A stretch of 64,000 nucleotides of DNA. It comes from Crambe crambe. Its lineage: Eukaryota > Porifera > Demospongiae > Poecilosclerida > Crambeidae. Shown here one piece after another: positions 114 through 43,639 of this stretch. A program made the translations under genes and the position numbers. How positions within the stretch are numbered: position 1 is the first letter of the stretch; each line of letters opens with the position of its first letter. The notes under the pieces are model-generated. The model worked only from the letters and a program-made list of their open reading frames with translations. It was not told the DNA's origin and did no database searches. Location of the stretch: NCBI GenBank assembly GCA_963924555.1, contig OZ004596.1, positions 6,458,139 through 6,522,138 of the forward strand. Reading direction: 5' to 3'.

Positions 114-3100
114 GTACGTCGGTTGATGGTGGTGTGGTGGTGATGGAGTTATCTGATGAAGGAGACTTTTTGCTTGCTATTGAGCGTTACACAGATGCCA
201 TTACACTCAACAAAAATAATCACGTTCTCTTTAGCAATCGTTCGGCTGCTTATGCTCGTGTAGGGAAATTTTCTGAGGCACTGGAAGATGCTCAAAGGTG
301 TCACGAGCTCAAACTTGACTGGCCAAAGGTGAGAGGTATTATTTTATCTTTTGTTATTGTGGCTATTGGCCAAGCCAAGTTAAATATCAGCCAAGTCCAT
401 CAGCATGTGGATATGTGGATGTCAACATGTTTCTGAAAAGTGTGCTATGTCCTTGTAACTTCCTCATATTGGGGACTTGAAAGGAGTGTAGGTGTCTTTT
501 ATTTGGCAACAGGGTCCCGTACTTTCCATAGTTTGGGAGTGCACAACTTTTTTTGGAGAAACAATTATTGTAGACTACAGTAGTGAGTGTTTGGAGATGC
601 TCTTTCTGTTTTTATTTTCAGGGTTACTACCGGTTGGGCATAGCCTACCAAGGCTTGGAGATGTATGAAGAGGCGATGGCTGCCTATGCAGAGGGTTTGG
701 TTTCTGACCCCAAACAAGGCTCCATGCTTCATGGGTTGATAGAAGCAATGCTCAAGTCTCCTTATAGAGGTATTAATTAAGCATGGGGTTTAGATGTACT
801 ATGAACTTTTCACACTTGCATACATGTAGGGAACTTTGGACCAAAGTTGGAGAAGTTTGAGACTCTTAAGTTGGACAAGAATCCATTTATCATTACATCA
901 GTGATCGGTCAAGAGCTGCAGAGTGCCAATCGACCAGAGTGTGCAGTAAAAATTCTTGAAGCTGCTCGTTCTATCGGCACTGACAGCTTGAAGTTAGAAG
1001 CATCGTTGATGCAGGCCTTGGGACGAGTTCACTGGCTACTCTCCAACACTGAAAAGGCTCTGCTGTACATGGAGAAGGACCTAGAAATCAACAATACACT
1101 CAGTGATGACATTGGCTGCTGTCGAGCTCATGACAACCTTGGTATCGCTTATTTTTCTCTTGGACGGTACGAAGAGGCCATAAAGCACCACTCCGAACAG
1201 TTGTCGATAGCACAAGCCAGAGGAGAGTTATTGGAGATGATCAACTCTCTCACTCGACTCGGCAATGCTTACACCAAACAAGAGGATTATGTCAAGGCCC
1301 TTAGAGCCTACAAAGATTCTCTGAAACTCTCTAAGGATAGTGGCGATCATGTGCTGATAACCAGAGCCTTCAGCAACTTGGGCAGGACCCAACTCAGCAA
1401 CAATGATGTGGAGAAAGCCATCATGTGGCACCATCAGCACCTCACCTTTGCCAAAGAAACCAAGAACAAGCTAGAAGAGGCCGAGGCATATGGCCATCTT
1501 GGGCATGCTTGCTTCGTCAAAGGCAACTACGAGCAATCTATGATGTTCTATCAGCAACTTTTGTCGGTCGCTGTGCAACTGAACGACATGAACCTCAAGT
1601 CTCGAGCATATGGAGGAATGGGGCATGCTAACAAGGCAATGGGCAACCTTTGGCATGCACAGAGCTGCCGCGAGCAGCAGCTAAAGTTGTGCAAAGACAT
1701 TGGGGACGAGGAAGGGCAAGCCAGTGCTCTCGGCCACCTGGGACACATACACAAGGCCTCGGGAAAACTTGCTCAGGCAATGCAGTTCTATTCAGACAGT
1801 CTGCAGTTGGCAAAGAAGCTGAAGGACAGAAGTGGAGAGGGAAGGGTCTATGCTAATCTGGGGAGCTGTCACATCGCCCTTGGTAACTATCGTGAGGCGG
1901 TTGGATACTACCAGCTGGAACTGAACATCTCACAAGAAGTGAAGAACAAAAGTAACGAAGCCACCACTCTGGGCCACTTGGGTACTGCCTATTTGGCTCT
2001 GGATAACTTGGACTTGTCCTTGGACCACTTGCAGAAGAGTTTGAAGCTGGCCCGTGAGATTCAGGACAAGACGGTCGAGTGTCAGGCCTTGAGCAATCTG
2101 GGCCACTACCACACCTCTACTAAAGAGTACACAGATGCCCTGCCACACTTGGAGAGAGCACTCAAGTTGGCCCAGGAACAGAAAGATCACGTCAACGAGA
2201 GCAAAGTGTGTCACAACTTGGCATTGTGTTATGAAGCACTGGGGAATTACCAACAAGCCATCAAGTACTACCAGCACGATTTGATGGTGGCCAAAGAAGC
2301 ACAGGATAAGGAAGGCATGACCCATGCTTGTGAGAAGCTGTTCAGGGCTCATGCTGAGATCGGAGACAAAGAACAAGCCGAGATTTACCGTAAAAAGGTC
2401 CACACCATTGCAGAGGACATTCACAACACTTCTGGCAAGTGCACCTTCTGGAATCAGATTGCAGAGGATGCCCTGGGCTCTGGGGACAACGACAAGGCCA
2501 TCGAGTATTATGAGAATCTCCTGAAGGAAGCCAAGAAAGAGCAGCATCAATCTTTTGAGGGTCTGGCTTATTGTGGTTTGGGAAATGCTTACCTTGCTCG
2601 AGGTGACTACGAGCATGCACTTAGCTATCATCGTCGTGACTTGAGCATTCGTAAAGCCACAGGAGACTCAGTGGGCGAATGCAATGCATATGGTAACATG
2701 GGTGCGGCTTGCAATGCACTGAGTCAGCACACACAGGCAGTCGACTGCTATGAACACCAGTTGACATTGGCCAAGCAGCTGGAGAATGTTGTCCTAGTCA
2801 CCAAGGCTTACGGCTGTCTAGGCATTGTTCATCGTAACATGAAGAATTTCCAAAAGGCCCTGCACTACCACCAACACCAGTTGTCCAGTGCTCTAGCCAT
2901 GAACGACAACATAATCGAACAAGCCAGTGCTCATGCCAACCTGGGAGACTCTTTTGAAGCAGTGGGTGACTACCAGGAGGCAGTTAAGCATCACGACCAT
3001 CACTTGATGTTGGCTCAGCAGGCTAAAGAGGAGCTGGTGCAGATTCGTGCATTGAGTAGCCTCGGGAGAGCACACAGAGGCCTGGGGAACCTCAGAAGAG

Positions 3101-6100
3101 CCTTGTTCTTCTTTGAGCAACAGCTGAAACTTGCCAAGGGCTTGACTGACGAGTACATAGAAGCCGAGTGCTATGCGGACAAGGGAGGCATTCAGATGTA
3201 CCTGGGTGAATATGGTGGTGCTTTGGAATCCTTCTCCTGCCAGTTACAGCTCTCTCGACAACTCCAGGACGCCTTCAGCGAGGCACTGGCTGCATGCGGC
3301 TTGGGAGAAGTTCACGCTCGCCTTGGCAATCACAGGGAGGCCATCGACTATCACAAGTTGGACTTGAGAATCTCTAGTGCTCACCAGTTTGTTGATGGTG
3401 AAGCTCGTGCTCTGGGAAACATTGCGGAGACGTACGAGTCAATCAGTGAGTACAAGAATGCCGTTGAGTACAGGGAAAAGCAGCTTATAGCAGCAGATAT
3501 ATTGCAGGATGGTTTCGTCAAGGCTCTTGCTTTCATAGGGCTTGGTAAGGTCCACATCAAGCTAGCAGAGTACAACCGTGCCATCACACTACTGAAGCAG
3601 GCCCTCAGTCTCATAGTGGACAAGTCCTCGGAAGCCGAGCAACACACTCAAACTGAGATTGAAGCTGAAGCCAAGATTCGTTTCTACCTGGGACAGGCTT
3701 TTTACTACCAGTGTCATTATGATGCATCGGTGGTGTACCTGCAGAAAGCCCTACCACTGTTTGAACACATGAGACAGCATGTGGGTCACTACGACCATGC
3801 CACGAAACAGACCCTGGAACTCTACCCCCTCCTCTTCCAAACACTGGTCAACACCCTGGTCAAACAAGGCAAGGTGGAAGAGGCATTAGAGATGGCCGAG
3901 ATGGAGAGAAACAGAGCTGTTGTCGAAGCTCTGACGCAGAGAGAAGTCAACCAACAAGTGCTGAAAGCCAGTGGCCTCTTGAAACAGTTCAAACCCAACT
4001 CCAGTTGGATCCAAGAAGCTATCGATACCATCCAGACACAAGTTCTCTACTTTTCCGTGGCCCTCAACCATGTCTTCATCTGGTTACTTCACCCAAAGAG
4101 TGGCGTCGTGCAGTTTCAGAAGGTCGACATGACAGACTTCAATCTGCCTGGTTCAGATAATGCTTCGGTGTACAGTGAGAGCAGTGCCTCATATGTCCAA
4201 CCCCTTATCGACAGCGTATCTGCTGTTCGTGAAGCTCTGGGAGTGGAGCAACGCTTCAGACTCTCTGCAAAGAGCATCAGTTCTGGTATTTCTGATGATT
4301 TTGATTCTGGGGAGGACAGTGAGTCACTGGTGGGCTCTGGCTCCAACTTATCTGCTCCTGCTTTCCGGCAAGCCAAGGGAAGAGAGATGACCAGTGGCAA
4401 AGGTGGTTCTTCCCGCCAAATTAACATGCAACCCATCCATGAGCTCTACGATATCTTGATCAAGCCAGTGGAATATGCTTTGCCCAGACCTTGCGGTGGG
4501 TCAGTGGGAAGGTTAACTATCATCCCCGACAAAGAACTCTATCTGGTCCCATTCAGTCTGCTCAAGGGAGAGGGAATTTCGGAGTGTCTCTATGAGCGCT
4601 ATCACCTCCAGTTTGCTCCCTCTCTCCAGTCACTTACGTTGGCTAAAAAACCCCCAAAGACCACTCAAAAGATAAATAATGATTCCAAAATGCTTAATAG
4701 CAGTGGTTCCTCTGTCAAAGCTAGTTTTCAACGCTTGATCTCATCAGTTTCTAGTTCTGGTAATGAAGTCAATGGGACATCAGAGAAAGGAGCACTAGTG
4801 GTTGGATGTCCTGCTGTGCCTCTAACTGCCACCAACTCTAACTGGCAGTCTCTCAAAGGAGTAGAGAAAGAGGCTAAACTCATTGCAGACTTGCTTCAGT
4901 CTCCAGCCCTTCTCTATCGTTCTGCCAATAAGGATCGTGTAATGGAGCAGTTGAGTTCTGTGGACTGCATTCATCTGGCTATCAATGTTTCCTGGAATCG
5001 TTGCGAGATGATTTTATCGCCCACTAATACCAGATGGGGGAGTTCCGAGCTGTTGGATGGGAGGATAGGGCAAGGGAAAGCGAGGGTTGGCAGTGTTAGT
5101 GGTGGTGATGGGAGTGTACCAGATCCCAGCCATTATGTGGTGACAGCTGGTGAAGTAATGGACAAAAGACTGACTGCCAAGCTAGTGGTACTGAGTGCTG
5201 GTCACCGCAGTGAATCTCCGCGTGTGCCTTTCAAAGGACTGATGTGCATGGCTCAAGTCTTCCTATCAGCTGGAGCAGAGTGCGTTCTCCTTCCTGTATG
5301 GCCTGCTAGCTTTCAGGCCTCCAGGCTCATGATGAATGCCTTTTATAGCAGCTTGATTTATGGCAGCAAGGCGAGTAGAGCACTGCGCTATGCCATGCAG
5401 GTCAGTTGAGTAGTCTCTAATTGTTCTTGTTGACAAGTGTTTGTTTTCTGTTTGGTGATTGCAGGTGGTGCACACCAGTGGCAAGTATGGGCACCCTGCC
5501 AACTGGGCTGGTTATATGCTAATGGGTAAGGATGTTGTGCTACGCGATCGCTCGTTGGATTTGGCAAAGAGTATTCGCCGTATGTTGCAGTCTCCTTCAG
5601 ACCATCTAGTGGCTACTCTTCAGCTTTTACAGAATATGGTACATCCATAGTGTGTAAAGGTGATGTATTTTATTTATTCACTTCATATATTTTAGATTAG
5701 TAACTCTTTAAAGAGAATTGCCCAGGCTGATGGGTTAGCAGAACCCAAATACACTTCACGGCAGGTCGTGGAGGCTAAAGTAGGACAAGTTCAGGGGTGG
5801 GAGGACCTGCTGACCTATACTGGATTCCATTTCATTGGACCCATGAAAGAGGTCCCTGCTACCATTGTTTTTCCTGAACACGACGACTCGGGACTGCAGC
5901 GAAGGGCTATTAGACATCTGGAGGCACTTTTAGGCCTTCCCCAGGCCTGTCTCAAACCACTGGCCATTCTCAGCAAGCAGCCTGAAGTTGCAGCCCCATT
6001 ATTCAGCACAGTACGTCTCTTATTATTTCCATACAGAATGTGGTAATTACGTTAGACTCGTGTATGACTGTAGCTTCAAAGTGCAAAGGTCACACTGGAA

Positions 6101-34087: not shown

Positions 34088-35949
34088 ATGGCTAACGAGG
34101 CAGCAATGTTGTTGGATCAGTTGATGGGCACTACCAGAAATGCAGTACCCGGAGAAAACGCTAAGGAATTGGGTTACACAGATGAAGAAGTTTGCAAGTA
34201 TCACCTGTGTGGATTTTGTCCTTCTGAGTTGTTTATCAACACCAAAGCTGAAGCTGCCATAGGTAGGCCAGCTAAGTTAGTTTCAGGTAGCTGTGATTAA
34301 GATATCATATGGGTATTCATAGGGCCATGCTACAAAGTACATGATGAACGTTTAAAGAAAATGTAAGTGTGCCTAATGGCAAGTGCCTAGGTAATTCAAT
34401 GGTCGTGTAATAACAGGTATGAGAACAGTTCCGATAAGGAGCGCTATGGATATGAAGAGATATTTCTATCGTATTTGGAGCGTATCATACGAGATTTAGA
34501 TCGCAAAATTGAACGTGGGCGGGAAAGGCTTCGACGTAGTGCAGAAGCTAAGCAACGGGTATGGCAATGTAATAATTATGAATCCACTACTTACTTTGCA
34601 ATACGAATAGTCTTTTGGTGGCGGCCCAGGAGGGTGCTCTAGTGACAAGCTGAAGCAGCTGAATGAAGAGATAGAGGGGCTGGTTGTAGAGGTTAAGAGT
34701 CCTACTGTCAGATGAGAGTTATTCTGTATGACTTTTTTCCTCCTTCCCCTGACAGTTGCAGCAATTAGGTGATTTGGGACGAGTAGAGGAAGCTCAAGAA
34801 CTCATGATGAAACTAGAACAGCTCGAAAGGGAAAGAGAATCTGAAAGGTTGGCTACTACAGCATCAGGTCCAAAGGTAATGGATGATCCTCGTCAAAGTG
34901 ACGTTTCAATATTAAAAATAAAAGGTCTTGGCTGGATTCGAACTCGATAACAATGATTTCCACGAAAAGATGGAATTGTGTGACGTCTGTGGATCCTTCC
35001 TCGTCATCGGAGATACTCAGAGTCGTGTGGATGCTCACCTTCTGGGCAAGCAACATATCGGGTTTGCCCGCATCAGGACGACTATAGCAAATTTGAAGGT
35101 ACACCATCAGTGTAGACAGTGGCATAGTTCAAGGTGATAACAACTTTATGCGTTATTTAGTGATGACCAGTTCAGTCTGTCGTACTATACTAATGTTAAA
35201 AAGTTGTGCTACGTTGTATCAGGTTAGAATCAGAGGTTAGTGACAGCAGAGTTCATGTTGGAGGGAGAATAATTTTCCATTTGGTGTCTGGCTGGTAATA
35301 GTAATTACCATTGGTTGCTCTAATTTTTTATCAGTTGAAAAAGGAGGAGAGATTTAGAGCAAAACAGGAGCTCAACTTGCGTCGACAGCAAGAACAGGCT
35401 GAAGTCCGTAGCCGTCGCAGACATTCTCATCGCAGTCGATCCAGGGAAAGAAGGAAGTCTTATCGATCTCGTTCTCGGGACAAGAGCCGCAAGGAGTCTC
35501 CATCACATGCAAGGAAATCGGAGGGGAGGAGGAAGAGGTCTTGGAGCAGATCCCAGGATAGGAAACGATCACGGAGTAGATCCCAAAACAGGAAGAAGTC
35601 ACGGAGTAGATCTCGGGACAGGAAGAGGTCACGGAGCAGATCCAGAGGCAGGAAGAGGTCACGGAGCAGATCCAGGGGCAGGAAGAGGTCACGGAGCAGA
35701 TCTCGGGGCAGGAAGAGGTCACAGAGCAGATCCAGGGGCAGGAAGAGGTCACGGAGCAGATCTCGGGGCAGGAAGAGGTCGCGGAGCAGATCCAGAGAAA
35801 AGGACTCGCACCGGCGCAGATCCCGGGACAAGCGATCTCGCTCCAGATCAAAAGGGAGGAAGAAGTCTCCATGCAAGTCTAGAAATCGAGAGAGATCACG
35901 TTCCAGGTCCACTGAAAATTCTGAAGGAAAGGTTACTGAGGAACACTAG
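34088..35949 (+). CDS. LUC7L3: LUC7L3-type U1 snRNP splicing factor
   Basis: The start MANEAAMLLDQLMGTTR is followed by the first zinc finger segment VCKYHLCGFCPSELFINTK and PCYKVHDERLKK. A coiled coil follows (EEAQELMMKLEQLERERE), then a second C2H2 finger in LCDVCGSFLVIGDTQSRVDA with GKQHIGF. The wording is closer to LUC7L3 (CROP) than to LUC7L/LUC7L2. The last exon (about 35335-35949) is an arginine-serine domain dominated by copies of GRKRSRSRSR. LUC7 proteins stabilise U1 snRNA pairing at 5' splice sites and influence donor-site choice. It is a nuclear-speckle protein. The frame ends KVTEEH. Confidence 0.93.
35560..35800 (+). repeat. 30-bp minisatellite coding the RS domain of LUC7L3
   Basis: A 30-bp unit (core AGGAAGAGGTCACGGAGCAG) is repeated about eight times with few changes, encoding (G/D)RKRSRSRSR. 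Because the period is a multiple of three, other frames and the opposite strand also stay open; those are by-products of the repeat. Confidence 0.9.
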
Positions 35950-36092
35950 AAATATAGGTTTGGACAGCACTGACCAATGCAGGGCTAGCAAGCTTGAGAT
36001 AGACGTTTATAATACATGAAATTAATCAAGCAATCAGAAGGGGCGGTGCAACGTTGATGCGCGTTATAAGGAACTAGGCTATAGCAAGCATA

Positions 36093-37495
36093 ATGGAAAG
36101 GTCGGTGGTGGGAACGGAGGATGCCGTTGTGGCTTCTCAAGGCGACAAGATCCGTCACTTATCCCAAAAGAAAAAGAAAGTTGCGATAGAAGAAGAGGAA
36201 TTCACCGAGGTGCTATCTATATCCAGTTAGCTAGCTTTTGTTTTTAATAGTAGTTTTTTTTTGTAGGCATTGACTACCATCATTCGTCGCGATTTCTTTC
36301 CCGATGTGGCCAGACTTCAGGCTCAGGTAGAATTACTCGACTCCAGTAATAATGTTGGAGGAAGTGTGTTGTCCGAAGAAAGGACTGCGGATGAAGGTAA
36401 CCTGGGTAACGACACACCTCAAATGTGTAAAGGCTCTCAGAAAGATGCAGATACACTAGGTCTAGATAAGTTTTTGAACAAGTACGAGAGTGAAGACGAC
36501 GCTTCATTCAGCGACATGCTGGAAAAATCTCGTGAAGTTCACCAGCAGAAGCATGCATGGCTCAGCCACAAAGAAGAAGAGTACTCTTTGATGGGTGTAG
36601 ACAAACCGGCCATTACTGACGGTCGTGAAGTGCAAAGGCGGGCCGGATTAGATTCGTGGAAGTACACTGCAAAAAACTCACTCATGTATGTCCCCGATAG
36701 TGCTGATTTCAGTGCGTCGGAGATGATCGACAGGGCAGCCAAGACACAGCAAATAGCACATCCCAATACACGGTTACCTCGACATTTCGTTCAGAAGGTT
36801 GTATTGCCAGACAACCAGAAGAAGCCTACACAAGATAAAATTGGAGTCGACGGGAAAATCGTATCAGACGATAAAAGTCCAAAGGTTAACGGATATGGTT
36901 TTATAGCCACACCTCGTATCGTTCCAGGTATACGACAGTGATGGCAACAGTCCACCCCGTAATTTTGGTGTATAATAATCGTAGGTGTGGATGCATCTCC
37001 TCTGATGACATGGGGAAGTGTAGAAGGGACTCCACAGAGACTCGATACAGAAGTCGTTCCCCCTCCTGGCCCGTCATTCAAAATGCCAAAAATTCCCGCA
37101 AGGGAAAAAATGGCTATAAAACTTGCAGATGAAGTAGCCAAGGCAAGTAGACAAAGAAAAAAGATTGTTGCTGCAACTGCCAGGTGAGTAAATGTACTCT
37201 AAAACTATCGTTAAAATCTGTCATTGTTTTATGCAGTCCGTCTTTGCTAAGAGAGAGGCTTGGAACTACACCATCGAAATCAGATAGATTGCGGTTACTC
37301 TCTCCTGCTGCCAGAAAATTGATAGGTCAAAAAACAAGACTCTCTTCGGATCCAGCATTAAATGCTATCTATAGTCCTCAGCTCAGTGTACGCAGTAGTG
37401 GAATAAGAACACCCGATATCAGATCAAAAAGAACTCCAGTTCACACTAGTACTACTTCTCTAACGGATGACTTATTGAACCTGAAAAAAAATTGA
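36093..37495 (+). CDS. ESS2: ESS2 (DGCR14) splicing factor homologue
   Basis: Exon 1 encodes MERSVVGTEDAVVAS and EEEEFTE. The next exon continues ALTTIIRRDFFPDVARLQAQ, the ES2 family signature. Further matches are SEDDASFSDMLEKSRE, HAWLSHKEEEYSLM, WKYTAKNSLMYVPD, VNGYGFIATPRIVPG, PLMTWGSVEGTPQRL and a C-terminal TTSLTDDLLNL. These align in order with human ESS2, a nuclear protein of the spliceosomal C complex that aids 3' splice-site use. Length is about 420 residues in four exons. It lies 143 bp behind LUC7L3 and 61 bp ahead of the SEC14-like gene on the same strand. Confidence 0.93.
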
Positions 37496-37556
37496 TGTAA
37501 TATCCTGTCTTCTTTCATAATATGTATTCGTATGTGTATTTTTGCTATAAGCATTC

Positions 37557-39223
37557 ATGGCTACCAATCGGCAATTGGCTACCAAGTTGACTCCCGAGGA
37601 GAAGGCTGCTCTGGAAGAGTTCAGCGCTTTAGTGGACAGCATACCTAATAAACCGGAGAACGACTATCGCTATTATCTTAGATGGCTTAGGGCTAGAAAG
37701 TTTAACGTGAAGAGAGCCGTGGAGATGTTCAGAAAGGTATTAACGGTGATGTTAATTTGCATGATATTTCAGCACAATTCACCCTTTCTAGCACATGGAA
37801 TACAGGGCACGCTTTAGAGCCGATGAAATTCTCGAAGAGTGGACCCCTCCGGAAGTGTTGGTTAAATGTTTTCCTGGAGGATTCTTTGGTGAAGACAGAG
37901 GTGGTCACCCTGTGTGGTATGATAATATGGGAAACTTGGATTACAGGGGTGAGTACAGCGTTTTTCTTCACTTGAATAGTAGGACCTCGCGGTACTTACT
38001 GTAGGGTTGCATAGATCGGCGAAGAAAGAGGATATTCTCAAGTATAAGTGCATGCAGTGTGTACTGTGCGACAAAGTATTGAAGGACAAGTCTGTTGAGG
38101 TTAGTCCACATACATAGCCCATTATACGCTTCACAAGGACTCGTATCGTGCTGTAGGAAGGTCGCTACATCGAGACTATCTCCTGCGTCTTGGACTTTGA
38201 AAATCTAAGTTTCCAAAAGCATTACTACTGGCCTGGTTTGGAAATACTGAAAGATGTAATGGGTGCCATAAAAAAAGCATCTGCTGGCTGGTGAACGCGT
38301 GGTTCTTTTTCAGGTGCTGGAACAGGTGATGGCTAATTCTCCGGAAAGAATTGAGCAAGTCTTCATAATCAGAGGTAAGATTATCTGTGAGTCCCTTTAT
38401 AACTGTAATGTACAGGATGAGCAGCCCCTGCAATATTCTCTTATGGCTATAACCTGATCAAACACATCTTTGACGAGAATACACGCAAGAAAATTTTAAT
38501 TTTTGGAGGTAAGAACGTAAAGCAGGTTTTGAAAAAGTTTTAGTGCGTGTTCGTTATCCAGCCGATTGGAAAGAAGACCTTCAAAAGTACATCAGTCCAG
38601 ACCAGCTACCACAGGTGTATGGCGGGACGAGACGCGAACCCGATTCACGGTGTTCAGACTATGTGTGTAAATACTGATTGAAGGGGATCCTTTCACCATC
38701 CTTACTTACTATTGTTATCAAGATAAATCACGGCTGTGACGTTCCTCAAGAGTACTACTTTACTAACCTAACTGAGAAAAGAAGGGACGATATGGACAGA
38801 GTCACTGTTGGTAGAGGAAGATGTCACGAATTGGTATACGAGGTGACACAAGAGGGAAGCATACTGCAGTGGGAGTTCATTACTTCAGAATATGACATTG
38901 GCTTTGGTATCTCTCTTTCAGTTCATGGAAATGCAGTGGAACTGGTGAGAGAACTTGCTGATGCATGGTTAAAACTTTCCATACCTTTTGCTGCAGCTCC
39001 CCCTCTCCCGCTACAACAGTCACCTAGAGCCCGAGGTAGGACAACACTGCTGTCAGCTGTTGGGGAAATGTGAGAATACTGATTCTTCCACTATATGTTA
39101 CAGCATCTCATTTTGGTGTATCTAGATGTGCTCAAGTTTGACAATTCATTCAGTTGGACTCGTTGCAAAGAAGTCTATTATTCTATCAAACTACAGCCTC
39201 CAGCAAAGACCTTAGCTACATAG
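37557..39223 (+). CDS. SEC14L2: SEC14-like lipid-binding protein (CRAL-TRIO + GOLD)
   Basis: The CRAL-TRIO N-lobe reads [20 protein letters not shown] and [16 protein letters not shown]. The lipid pocket region includes [60 protein letters not shown] and [13 protein letters not shown]. The C-terminal GOLD domain contains [31 protein letters not shown] and a last exon with [20 protein letters not shown], ending at 39223. At least ten short introns are present. The SEC14L2-4 group carries tocopherol, squalene or phosphoinositides and may couple lipid sensing to vesicle traffic. The start ATG is only 61 bp behind the ESS2 stop, so it must use a very short promoter or be cotranscribed. Confidence 0.92.
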
Positions 39224-39263
39224 TCGTGTCATATCAGTGTAAAAAATTAAATTATAGTGCAAT

Positions 39264-39331
39264 AAACTCCTTGTCAGACAAATATTAAACAAACTCCTTG
39301 TCAGACAAATATTAAACAAACTCCTTGTCTG
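39264..39331. repeat. 27-bp tandem repeat spanning a stop codon
   Basis: Two full units and one partial unit (39264-39290, 39291-39317, 39318-39331) share the core AAACTCCTTGTCAGACAAAT. The stop codon of the minus-strand kinase gene (39312-39314) lies in the second unit, so the repeat overlaps the last codons and 3' UTR. Confidence 0.9.
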
Positions 39332-42300
39332 ACTTTGTCCCTCCATGAAGTTTGAAAGGTCTTATAAAACCATGGCCAGTAGCAGCAGGAGACCGAGCTG
39401 GTCTCGGTGGCGCCGAAGTACTCAAAGTAGAACCACGCTGAGCAGAAAACTTGAGAGAAAGAGGCTCAGCTGCTACGTAATAAAAATCACCACTTCCTTC
39501 TCCGATGTCTTTGGCAAGATTTGGGTAACTTTCTAATTTCAATTTTCTAGGTGTCTCCAGTAGTCGAGCAAGAAAAAGTTCAGGCCTACAAAGGAAATAA
39601 CGGCCATCAAACTAGGCTTATTGTTGTTTTGTCGGAGGTCTTACACTTTCCCAGGGCGAAGACCAAAGTTGCTGTAACTCGAACTGTCCATAAAAATGAA
39701 GGGCTTGTTCTGCTGCAAGTGAAACAACGCCGGGATGCTGGATTTGCTTTTCAAGGTCTTGACGGAATTAAAAAGTACAACGTCTCCCTTCTCATATCTG
39801 CAGATTTAATATTAATAACAGAGGTTACGACGATATCTTCACTCAAACTCACTCGCTTGGTCTCCCAATTTTCACTAGTGCACTATTAGAAGTGATGGCT
39901 GCTAATGGAGGGGAAAAAAAAAAATAATCCATGCCTTTTAGCACTGTAAAATAGTCCTTTACCATTGGTAGACTTTTGAACTGCACTCTCTAAAGAGGGG
40001 ATGCTGCTGCTCACAGAAGTAGCCAGCTGTTGGGCCATGGGGAGCAACTTTTGAAGGTCATAGGGCTCTATATCAGTAGGCATTGGAATGACAGAATAAT
40101 CTGCCAAGAGGTTGGGGTAAAGAGCACTCTGTCCTCCAGGTTTCACGTTAGCAGAAGCATCTGAATTTGGACTAAGGGAGAGAGAATAAAGATTATACAG
40201 CAATGGGTCAGTTTGATTGCCAACCTCAGTTGGTTAGCTACATCACAAAAGTGCTTGAGTTGCTTTGCGAGGTTCTCCATAACTTTCACACTTTCACTAC
40301 AAGTTACAAGCACGATGGGGTCACTAGATTGACTGTTGGCGAAAATCTTACTCTGACTGCTTGGCAGAATCAGAATGCAAATTGGCTGCTTTGCTTGGTA
40401 CCAAAGTGCTTTCGACTTCAGATACGGTGTCATTCTTTTGTGCTCTAAGGGATGTCAACTCGACAAATAACTGGGTTTTTTCCTCAGTCACGCTGCCGAG
40501 CTGAACATTAAGTTGCTCGACCTCTCTCTTGAGATTATCGACAACGGTAGGATCAGCAGTGGCTTGGCCAACTGAATGGTGTGCCCAGCCTCCAGGTGGA
40601 GGTGGTGGCGTAGCTTGAGCTTTCCGATCTTGAACTTGAGTACCCTGAAAGAGGTTCTGTGACTAATGTATTTTTTGAACCATCTTACTTACAGTAAAAC
40701 GAGATCTCAATATAGTACTACGTTCAAGAGATGCCTTATCGAGAAGGTTACTTGCAGTTGCACACCTCTCGAGAATGACAGATGCCCTTGCTCTCAGATC
40801 CCAGACCTCAGTCAGAGCACAGCTGAATCGTACGAGTTGAGTTTTTATATTTTGAGTCACTTTAGTTACTTCCCGAATACAGTCGGTCTCAATCTCTTTG
40901 CACGTGGATTGGACGAGATCTTTCTGCATTTGTAACAATTGGAAGCCGTAAACACTTACGGTATACGAGGTCGTGAAAAAACTAACCCGGATTTTTGGGA
41001 GCTTCTTAGCACGTTCAGAAATTGACGCGACAGTCTTTGAGATCTCCTCCTTGTTGAGGAAATTGGTAATCGAAGGAACAGGTTTAGCACTGAAAGCGTT
41101 TAGTTCATCCAGCGTCTGCTTCAGCTGAAATTTGGAGCATCATTTAATCACTGATTGGAGACGGGCATGACAAGAACAGATTAACCTTGGATACAGTAGC
41201 TGTCATCGTAGCAGTAAGTGCAGAGAGTTGACCGTGTTCCTGGCTACCAAGAGAGAGTAAGTCTTCATTTAACCACTGAGATGCCAGAGACAGCTTAGCC
41301 AAGGCTTGGTAAACTTCACCCAATAAGGACGGATAAACACCAGAGCTGAATAACTCGACCTCACGAGATGTGAATTCGACTACTTCTTCAAGTCCTTCGA
41401 GTTGCTTTCTTTGCTGTGACCCCATGTAACCAATCATGTGCACGATCTCGTCAGCAAACTTTTGCTACAATACAGTAGATTGGTAAAATATCGAGAGAGA
41501 GAAAGAGATTTTAGCATACCTCGGTAATAAGGTTGACAATGGTCATTTCGTCATCGACACAGTACTCTATAACAGCATTAAAAGCAAGTCAGTGCAGAGA
41601 GTAATTTAAAAGGAAAATGACATACTCAGTGGAGTGAAACAGGTTAGATCAGGTAACAGATGCGTCTCCTTCAATTGGTTGACTGAGAGCAAGTACAACT
41701 TTGCATGACCTTTAGATCCACCTGATTTCTGAAGAAGCTCGACAAATTGATCTTGGGAAATTATCTCGTTTGGAACGATGCAGTGAGAGCAGGTGTTAGA
41801 GAACAAGACCTGTCCATTAAGGGGTATGTGCCACTGAATGTGAACCTTTTCGGCCAATATTTCAGCCCTGGATAGAAATATCGATTTCGTGTACTATTGT
41901 TAACTACACATGTGCGAGGACTAACGTAAGTGTAGGATCCGAGATGATCTTCAAAGACGTCCCATGAAGTACATTAATGACTTCGATTTTTGAACGAATG
42001 ATGTCGTCAACAGTTTCGAAAAATTCAGTGAAAGTCATCCTTTCCCTTGGATCCAATTTGAGCATGGAGCACAACAAGGTCTTCATCTTATCACGAAAAG
42101 ATCTGATAGTAAACAATAACAGTATTATACAAACACAGCCACTATATGGACGACTTACTCAGATAAGCGCTCATTGACGGAAGGTGGTAATTCGTAAATG
42201 TAGTTAATTTTGCGATTGGGAGCACGTTCGAAAGCTATGGCATCACCTTTATGCTTTAAAATCCGTGGGATATCTTGAAGTTGCTGCATTACACATCATA

Positions 42301-43396
42301 ACAGGGTAACAGTGGAAAAAGTTTAAATAAATTGTTTCTTACAGCATAAAAACCACACTGGCCGACTAAGACCTTATACAGGAGAGCACCTATCGACCAA
42401 ATGTCTACTTTGTCATCGTAATGCTACAATCGGTAAAGACGATAAGAACACTCATTTACAGAAGGTAGTAGTAATACATACCTCTCCAGGGTGAAAAACA
42501 CAAGATAATGCTTCGGGAGCCTAATGGACGAGAGTAAAAGAGATCGTCTCAACATAATCGTGTGACATTACCATGAAAACTGGAGTCCCTGCAAGACTAG
42601 TCATGTCGATGGCTTTGTTACCTTCGTCCTTAAAGTGACGAGCAAATCCAAAATCTGCTAACTTTATCTACAGAAAATTAGCAAACAATCAAGTGAAATG
42701 GCTCATTATACCAGCTCACCATCATTTTTGAAGTGGTTTGATGGCGTTTGATGAGGATATTGCCTGGTTTTAAATCACGATGGACTATGTTTTGATCCCT
42801 GAGAGCTTTCATTCCCTGAGCTACAAATTGTGCAGCGGTTACTCCAGTCAAGAGCTCGAAAATTTAAAATCTTACCTAGTTGATGCAAGAATACTATTGT
42901 GCTTTCTTCATTGAAAGGATCGACTTTAACGAGGTGATCCAAATCATAGTCACATAGCTCCATAACAAGAACTATAAATTGCCTCAATTCCTGAATACAG
43001 AAAACAGTTGCAGACACATTGAGAGTGAATGCTGTACTGCCAGAGTTCTATAATATTTACCTGGACGTGAAGAAGATGAACTACATATTCACATCCCCGA
43101 AGAATTTTAAGAATACGGATCTCCCTTTCAAGGTTTTCTCGTACCTTTGGATCTTGCTTGAAATACTCCTTGCGCACTACTTTCACGGCAACCTCAGTAT
43201 TACCGTCCTGCAAATCGACGATAGATTCAAAATTCTTAAACAACTAGTAACGTACATTGGTCCATCCCAGGTAAACTTCACCGAAAGAACCTTTACCTAT
43301 TTTAGTACCCAGATGCCAGACATAGCCTTCGCAGTGAGCCAAATCTTGAGGGCAAACTCTCTTGAGCTGACTTAGCTTTGGCCTAGACTGACTCAT
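39312..43396 (-). CDS. ULK/TBK1-type kinase with FIP200/ATG11-like claw domain (apparent fusion)
   Basis: About 17 exons on one strand join in frame to roughly 1,000 residues. The kinase domain is complete: GKGSFGEVY, VAVKVV, MELCDYDLDHLV, IVHRDLKPGNILI (KPGN as in TBK1/IKK-epsilon), ADFGFAR (as in ULK/ATG1), GTPVFMAPEAL, VDIWSIGALLYKVLVG and DPRERMTFTEFFETVDDI. A segment in the position of the TBK1 ubiquitin-like domain follows (EKVHIQWHIPLNGQVLFS). A helical region (about 40660-41460), a Pro-rich linker (TPPPPPGGW) and a coiled coil (DNLKREVEQLNVQLGSVTEE) come next. The C-terminal exons read YEKGDVVLFNSVKT, KPFIFMDSSSYSNFGLRPGK and GDFYYVAAEPLSLKF. They follow the pattern of the FIP200/ATG11 claw (GDLVL, YFLHS, LKPGE, FYRVKAVSW). 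The kinase/scaffold assignment is strong for the kinase and moderate for the claw. Splice phases are consistent at each junction I checked; the short exon near 39855 is the weakest. Confidence 0.78.
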
Positions 43397-43491
43397 ACTT
43401 ACTACCAGATGGCAAACACAATCGGTCGATCACGATATAGCTAGGTAGGTGGTGCCACACCCAACTCAGCTTGACACTAGTTCAGCCAGCA
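43397..43491. other. Upstream region of the kinase-claw gene
   Basis: The presumed promoter is confined between the start codon and the inverted repeat that begins at 43492. No recognisable core element is visible. Confidence 0.35.
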
Positions 43492-43559
43492 AGGTCACAT
43501 GGACCAATCAGATTCATGCTGACATCATTGCCTACAAATCTGATTGGTCCATGTGACCT
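43492..43559. repeat. Perfect 23-bp inverted repeat (hairpin)
   Basis: The arms 43492-43514 and 43537-43559 are exact reverse complements (core GGTCACATGGACCAATCAGA) around a 22-bp loop. Each arm contains an ATTGG/CCAAT box. It may be a short foldback element or the termini of a very small MITE. Confidence 0.9.
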
Positions 43560-43639
43560 CGGCGTCTGAAGTATAGTACTAGTGGTATCAGCACAGGCTG
43601 ATACAGTATCGAATCCAGGTTGTTTCAGGGCTGTATCAA

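Follow-up and report, generated by a model that had tools for sequence, protein, structure and literature searches.

A sponge kinase with an IKK/TBK1-type scaffold and a predicted FIP200-type claw: a candidate early-branching lineage of the IKK family

Introduction

Kinases of the IKK/TBK1 family carry a C-terminal segment that binds NEMO or TANK. The FIP200/ATG11 family, which occurs in fungi, plants and animals, consists of scaffold proteins that have no kinase domain and possess a long coiled coil. A cryo-EM study describes the N-terminal half of FIP200 as resembling the TBK1 scaffold and suggests an evolutionary link (Shi et al., 2020, PMC7337493). A literature search, with most subscription papers and preprints outside its coverage, returned no paper on a fusion of such a kinase with a claw, and a review on NF-kB in early animals that appeared in 2026 (PMC13042239) contains neither of the terms 'TBK' and 'claw'.

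Here we describe a gene from the sponge Crambe crambe, located in a stretch of 64,000 nucleotides of contig OZ004596.1 that was analysed as a whole and is referred to as the window. We read its product, the claw kinase, as a member of a third, early-branching lineage of IKK-family kinases that was kept in all four sponge classes and in which a kinase, ubiquitin-like domain (ULD) and helical scaffold of the IKK/TBK1 type continue into a claw of the FIP200 type, and we give this reading a probability of roughly 0.68.

Results

The coding region extends over 39312..43396 on the minus strand, as do all features of the gene given below, and its 20 exons are spliced in frame into a protein of 1002 amino acids. 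All 19 introns are of the GT-AG type, measure 48-70 bases each and keep the reading frame. The start codon at 43396 is preceded by an in-frame stop and represents the sole methionine between this stop and the kinase domain; the stop codon lies at 39312. Kinase, scaffold and claw belong to one in-frame gene. The gene model and the domain anatomy together bear out what the initial annotation had proposed, a kinase, a scaffold of ubiquitin-like and helical dimer type and a FIP200/ATG11-like claw within a single gene.

The search for related proteins with the kinase region among 5.8 billion proteins gave 3365 matches with E<=0.001, and sponge proteins rank top among the best 120. Sixteen relatives were aligned. 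They include proteins from Amphimedon (P0002), Dysidea (P0005), Sycon (P0007), Corticium (P0008) and Oopsacas (P0010 and P0021), as well as P0001, whose gene name, Em0015g1136a, is one of Ephydatia. The remaining nine are entries without species name, of which P0003, P0004, P0006, P0009, P0014 and P0023 were placed with sponge proteins in trees and P0015, P0016 and P0022 by their likeness to Oopsacas. Since the named species cover Calcarea, Homoscleromorpha, Hexactinellida and Demospongiae, it follows that the ancestor shared by all living sponges had the claw kinase. Two divergent members occur in Oopsacas, one of 909 aa (P0010) and one of 778 aa (P0021), the latter without most of the linker. 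A profile search with the 16 relatives scored 7992 candidates, and the best 120 comprised 15 proteins of the sponge set and one sponge-like fragment of 375 aa, the remainder being kinases such as ULK, TBK1 and IKKepsilon; within these 120, the Pfam family ATG11 (PF10377) was found in the Sycon and Corticium rows and in no further protein. Among the matches listed, the combination of kinase and claw thus appears to be confined to sponges and to species-less entries that group with them. P0011, P0013, P0020 and P0024 were discarded as relatives, because their sequences show that the high scores are due to several kinase domains, and P0012, P0017-P0019 and P0121 were taken from Pfam lists to be of this multi-kinase-domain kind.

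The claw was found in 14 of the 16 relatives; the gene models of P0001 and P0009 lack it. By eye, the P0001 model stops near the position of the exon 17/18 boundary of the window gene, as would be expected if the claw kinase were two adjoining genes read as one, or the product of a wrong exon join. We consider this extremely improbable, since a frame maintained over 19 introns, none longer than 70 bases, leaves no space for a promoter and a poly-A site and since both parts are joined in 14/16 relatives. The P0001 model is probably incomplete, given that the start of its ULD is missing as well. Moreover, P0004 (918 aa) is encoded on a contig of 2885 bases and P0006 (854 aa) on one of 2837 bases; contigs of nearly coding length could hardly be derived from intron-rich DNA, which supports single transcripts in these relatives.

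In the surroundings of the gene, the convergent neighbour on the plus strand (37560-39223) ends at about 39.2 kb and encodes, as judged by eye, a SEC14/CRAL-TRIO-like protein with a GOLD-type end, a piece of which matched PF13897 below the cut-off (E 2.8e-5). Also on the plus strand and recognized by eye are a LUC7-like gene that ends in a long tail of RS repeats (34089-35950) and an ESS-2/DGCR14-like gene (36093-37496), of which a 39-residue piece gave no Pfam match over the cut-off. A tandem repeat with a period of 27 bases, with two full copies and a partial third (39261-39333), overlaps the final codons of the claw kinase and extends into its 3' flank. Upstream of the start lies an inverted repeat (43478-43573) with arms of 37 bases that are 86% complementary, carrying by eye two facing CCAAT-type boxes.

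The kinase domain (residues 28-311; 42015..43315) is complete (PF00069, E 7.5e-56), contains the catalytic motifs K56, HRD (148-150) and DFG (173-175), and is 64-76% identical to that of P0002-P0004. It is followed by a ubiquitin-like domain (about residues 320-425; 41556..41990), for which the profile of the relatives matches PDB ubiquitin with E 0.0012. The structural model of P0002 has a beta-grasp-like order at this place, and P0006 matches Pfam Ubiquitin_2 with E 0.0021, below the cut-off of that family. An hhalign comparison of the sponge tails with the FIP200 N-terminus yielded a weak match in the ULD only (probability 7.5). The next segment (about residues 426-660; 40624..41555) is a helical scaffold. 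Modelled in a relative, it has a fold of the IKK/TBK1/FIP200 type and comes structurally closest to IKKbeta, with IKKalpha and FIP200 differing by no more than about 1 Z. In the model of the short, glass-sponge-like P0014 the scaffold scored Z 14.2, barely above unrelated helical proteins (12.5). The order of kinase, ULD and helical scaffold or dimerisation domain is that of the IKK/TBK1 family. After a proline-rich stretch, a short coiled coil is predicted at about residues 688-732 (40408..40542) by weak coiled-coil Pfam matches below the cut-off, with helix 365-398 of the P0002 model given in its support. In contrast to FIP200/RB1CC1 and the ATG11 family, the protein thus combines a kinase with a very short coiled coil, of about 45 residues according to these weak matches.

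The claw domain occupies approximately residues 856-960 (exons 18-20; 39441..39869), and the model of a relative indicates that it is the C-terminal claw fold of the FIP200/ATG11 family. When ten relatives were scanned with PF10377 (cut-off 22 bits), P0007 (28.5 bits) and P0008 (28.9 bits) passed, P0010 and P0005 matched more weakly and six gave no match. Single-sequence searches with the window claw, and with the tail in the protein database, found nothing; matches were obtained only with the profiles and models of the relatives. A claw profile trained without glass-sponge members recovered all seven glass-sponge-like proteins among 437 sequences with E values of at most 2e-6; shuffled sequences reached 0.039 at best. 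In total, the 14 claws consist of seven training members and seven found independently. With a profile built from human, Sycon, Corticium, Dysidea and P0006 only, the window claw reached E 0.043 and P0003 0.2, the best shuffle being at 0.23. The window claw was absent among the matches listed for the human claw alone as query (E up to 4.5), and no claw was among the structure matches listed for the P0014 model.

The use of PF10377 alone is insufficient for the recognition of this domain. Its 11 matches in the genome of the same sponge were considered as FIP200 candidates, and the seven that were read (L009, L013-L016, L032 and L033) were identified by eye as integrase frames of retroelements; L010-L012 equal L009 in score and span, and the eleventh match lies at C1:6625789. 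Frames resembling an integrase C-terminus scored 18-25 bits, some of them above the cut-off, and matches at 22-25 bits are a source of false 'ATG11' labels. The seven matches to PF04108 in this genome were likewise rejected, since to the eye they are membrane proteins or coiled-coil proteins of another kind.

The residues of the FIP200 claw that bind p62 were taken from Turco (2019, PMC6477179). With the loop alignment being unsure, R1573 is represented by R or K in two, R1584 by R in three and F1574 by an aromatic residue in five of ten sponge claws, the window claw included, and the window claw has none of the three equivalents. The F1582 position is aromatic in 9/10. Since the p62-pocket residues are mostly different, the ligands of the sponge claws may differ from those of FIP200. 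PDB titles name structures of the FIP200 claw with peptides of NAP1, TNIP1, CCPG1, optineurin and ATG16L1, some of which are TBK1 adaptors.

In contrast to TBK1/IKKepsilon and IKKalpha/IKKbeta, the window protein not only adds a C-terminal claw but also has ULK-like DFGFAR and APE motifs in its kinase. A mixture of KPGN, as in TBK1, and DFGFAR, as in ULK, had been noticed previously and is indeed present. Ser192 of the sequence SLAGT (42596..42598) aligns with the activation-loop serine of TBK1 (SLYGT), Ser172, and a serine occupies this position in all 14 aligned claw-kinase rows. An insert of about 20 residues (254-273; 42185..42244) is seen in the spacing from DxWSxG to a conserved R, which amounts to 82-89 residues in claw kinases (14/14), 88-89 in TBK1/IKKepsilon (15/15) and 84 in IKKbeta (2/2), versus 62-64 in ULK (11/12, the remaining fungal row having 118) and 59-64 in other kinases (8/8). 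Insert, SLAGT serine and KPGN point to the IKK family, their value as family marks being our reading of the alignment.

Separate kinases of this family were looked for in the same genome, as the initial annotation had advised. A TBK1-type gene is located at about 3.76 Mb of C5 (L038, C5:3752500-3762000, minus strand), where the TBK1 query is matched with 62% identity over residues 157-233; seven kinase pieces follow each other in order over TBK1 residues 3-327, and ULD-like and scaffold-like frames come next by eye. The IKKbeta query gave generic kinases on top and, lower, an exon-sized match of 42% identity at about 6.88 Mb of C9. This locus (L042, C9:6878500-6888400; about 2669-3565, plus strand) contains IKKalpha/beta-type exons with an NCCGL motif that cover IKKbeta 37-191. 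Within the 9.9 kb examined, no exons for the second half of this kinase turned up, which could point to a gene fragment or to long introns. Searches of this genome with PF12063, PF21127 and PF18394 gave no match; they had no positive control, and PF18394 also missed the C5 gene. L017, the best PF18396 match, which set off the TBK1_ULD model, is by eye a tandem pair of RBR-type E3-like frames, of which the first begins in a ubiquitin-like manner.

The IKKalpha/beta-type exons on C9 bear on the question whether the claw kinase is the NF-kB kinase of the sponge, its claw being a relic or a binder of other peptides and autophagy not its task. Databases label relatives as 'IKK subunit beta-like', the modelled scaffold comes closest to IKKbeta, within about 1 Z of IKKalpha and FIP200, the cargo-pocket residues are mostly lost as far as the unsure loop alignment allows, and an IKK is reported for Amphimedon (PMC3517549). 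Against this stand the IKK-type exons elsewhere in the genome and the retention of the claw in four sponge classes, and we regard such a role as unlikely.

The final tree was calculated from 51 rows, including 14 claw kinases; P0015, P0016 and P0022 were left out, and P0001 and P0009 were kept despite their claw-less models. With a thin IKKalpha/beta sampling (two vertebrates), ctenophore and other early-animal IKK rows missing and the C9 pieces covering 45% of the columns, the claw kinases formed one clade (100/98). In earlier trees with fewer rows, the window kinase was nearest by tree path to P0003, P0004, P0002 and P0001. In the final tree, TBK1 and IKKbeta formed another clade (98/91), outside which the claw kinases branch, and all three stood together against ULK (96/91). 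The C5 gene fell into the TBK1 clade (100/100) and the C9 pieces grouped with IKKbeta (100/99). The support for the placement varied with the rows used: in the first trees the claw kinases adjoined TBK1 or were left open, without IKK they were sister to TBK1 (99/96), with two IKKbeta rows the support was 76/89, and it rose to 95/89 and then 96/91 once the TBK1 and IKK pieces of the same genome were added. A grouping of the claw kinases with ULK (p-AU 0.098) or with IKK (p-AU 0.212) was not rejected; a single clade of claw kinases and the C5 TBK1 was rejected (p-AU 9e-25).

It could still be argued that the protein is a true ULK/ATG1 kinase fused to a FIP200 scaffold, replacing the separate ULK1-FIP200 complex. 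Like ULK1/ULK2/ATG1 it has DFGFAR and APE motifs, the single-sequence PDB search placed ULK2 (126 bits) and ULK1 (122 bits) on top and TBK1 lower (83 bits), with IKK absent among the best 60 of 2674 matches, and the ULK placement in the tree survives at the p-AU given above. However, the insert found in 14/14 claw kinases is missing from 11/12 ULK rows, the tail is a different one, the tandem MIT domains of the ULK C-terminus (PF12063/PF21127) had no match in the window protein (E<=10) or in ten relatives (E<=1), and the tree speaks against ULK with 96/91. We consider this fusion very improbable. The earlier designation of the kinase as 'ULK-type' is wrong or unproved: pairwise scores speak for it, but the insert, the activation-loop serine, the order of ULD and scaffold and the best tree point to the IKK family instead.

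Discussion

Our analysis favours an early-branching IKK-family lineage with a FIP200-type claw. If the tree holds, the grouping of this sponge's own TBK1 with its bilaterian counterparts places the divergence of the claw kinases from TBK1/IKK before living sponges. The best tree, with the claw lineage outside TBK1 plus IKKbeta and the ULK placement at the p-AU of 0.098, is also compatible with the earlier suggestion of an 'ancestral intermediate'. In its full form, this would mean that the claw kinase preserves the form from which the entire IKK/TBK1 family arose, a ULK-like kinase fused to the scaffold and claw of a FIP200-like partner, and that TBK1 and IKK descend from it by loss of the claw. 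We put this forward tentatively, as clearly less than an even chance.

A fusion within the sponge lineage would account for the architecture differently: an IKK-family kinase would have acquired the FIP200 claw on a branch kept only by sponges, and the architecture would be uninformative on the origin of TBK1 and FIP200. The claw kinases found among the best 120 of thousands of matches are sponge proteins or species-less entries grouping with them, and the distribution of kinase-less FIP200/Atg11 over fungi, plants and animals implies that the scaffold with a claw came before the version with a kinase. On the other hand, the best tree has the claw lineage branching before the divergence of TBK1 and IKKbeta, and with the sponge's own TBK1 placed among bilaterian TBK1 (100/100) this lineage would be older than sponges, even though the claw itself might have been acquired on it at a later time. 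We rate the fusion as a serious possibility that falls somewhat short of even odds.

Beyond the domain anatomy, we infer the function of the claw kinase throughout. The peptides deposited with the FIP200 claw, together with the main role of Atg11 in fission yeast, given by Pan (2020, PMC7511232) as the dimerisation of Atg1, lead us to propose a self-contained unit in which the claw finds a cargo receptor or adaptor, the scaffold dimerises and clustering activates the kinase. The scaffold would form a dimer as in IKK, TBK1 and FIP200, and the claw would bind short motifs in cargo receptors or adaptors, where its ligands may not be those of FIP200. Clustering at the cargo might then allow the two kinase domains to phosphorylate each other at the SLAGT serine, and the active kinase might phosphorylate receptors and autophagy factors, perhaps also regulators of NF-kB. 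Elsewhere a bridge is needed, provided by NAP1, TNIP1 and similar adaptors that attach to the claw of FIP200, whereas the claw kinase would be recruiter and kinase in one chain.

The finding also concerns the labels given to sponge proteins. Amphimedon 'IKK subunit beta-like' (P0002) and Corticium 'TBK1-like' (P0008) have the same architecture as the window protein, the claw is unnamed in both titles, and PF10377 is precomputed for P0008 and not for P0002. Labels of the type 'IKK' or 'TBK1-like' can thus denote a claw-bearing protein in sponges, and conclusions on early NF-kB signalling that were drawn from such labels need rechecking.

With an IKK-type kinase, a shared scaffold and a claw in one chain, this protein allows phylogeny and biochemistry to address how the IKK/TBK1 immune kinases arose and how they are tied to autophagy. 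If the ancestral reading is true, sponges still carry the intermediate, and the recognition of autophagy cargo would have been the original job of the IKK/TBK1 immune kinases. The combination is a possible relic of a common origin of immune kinases and autophagy machinery.
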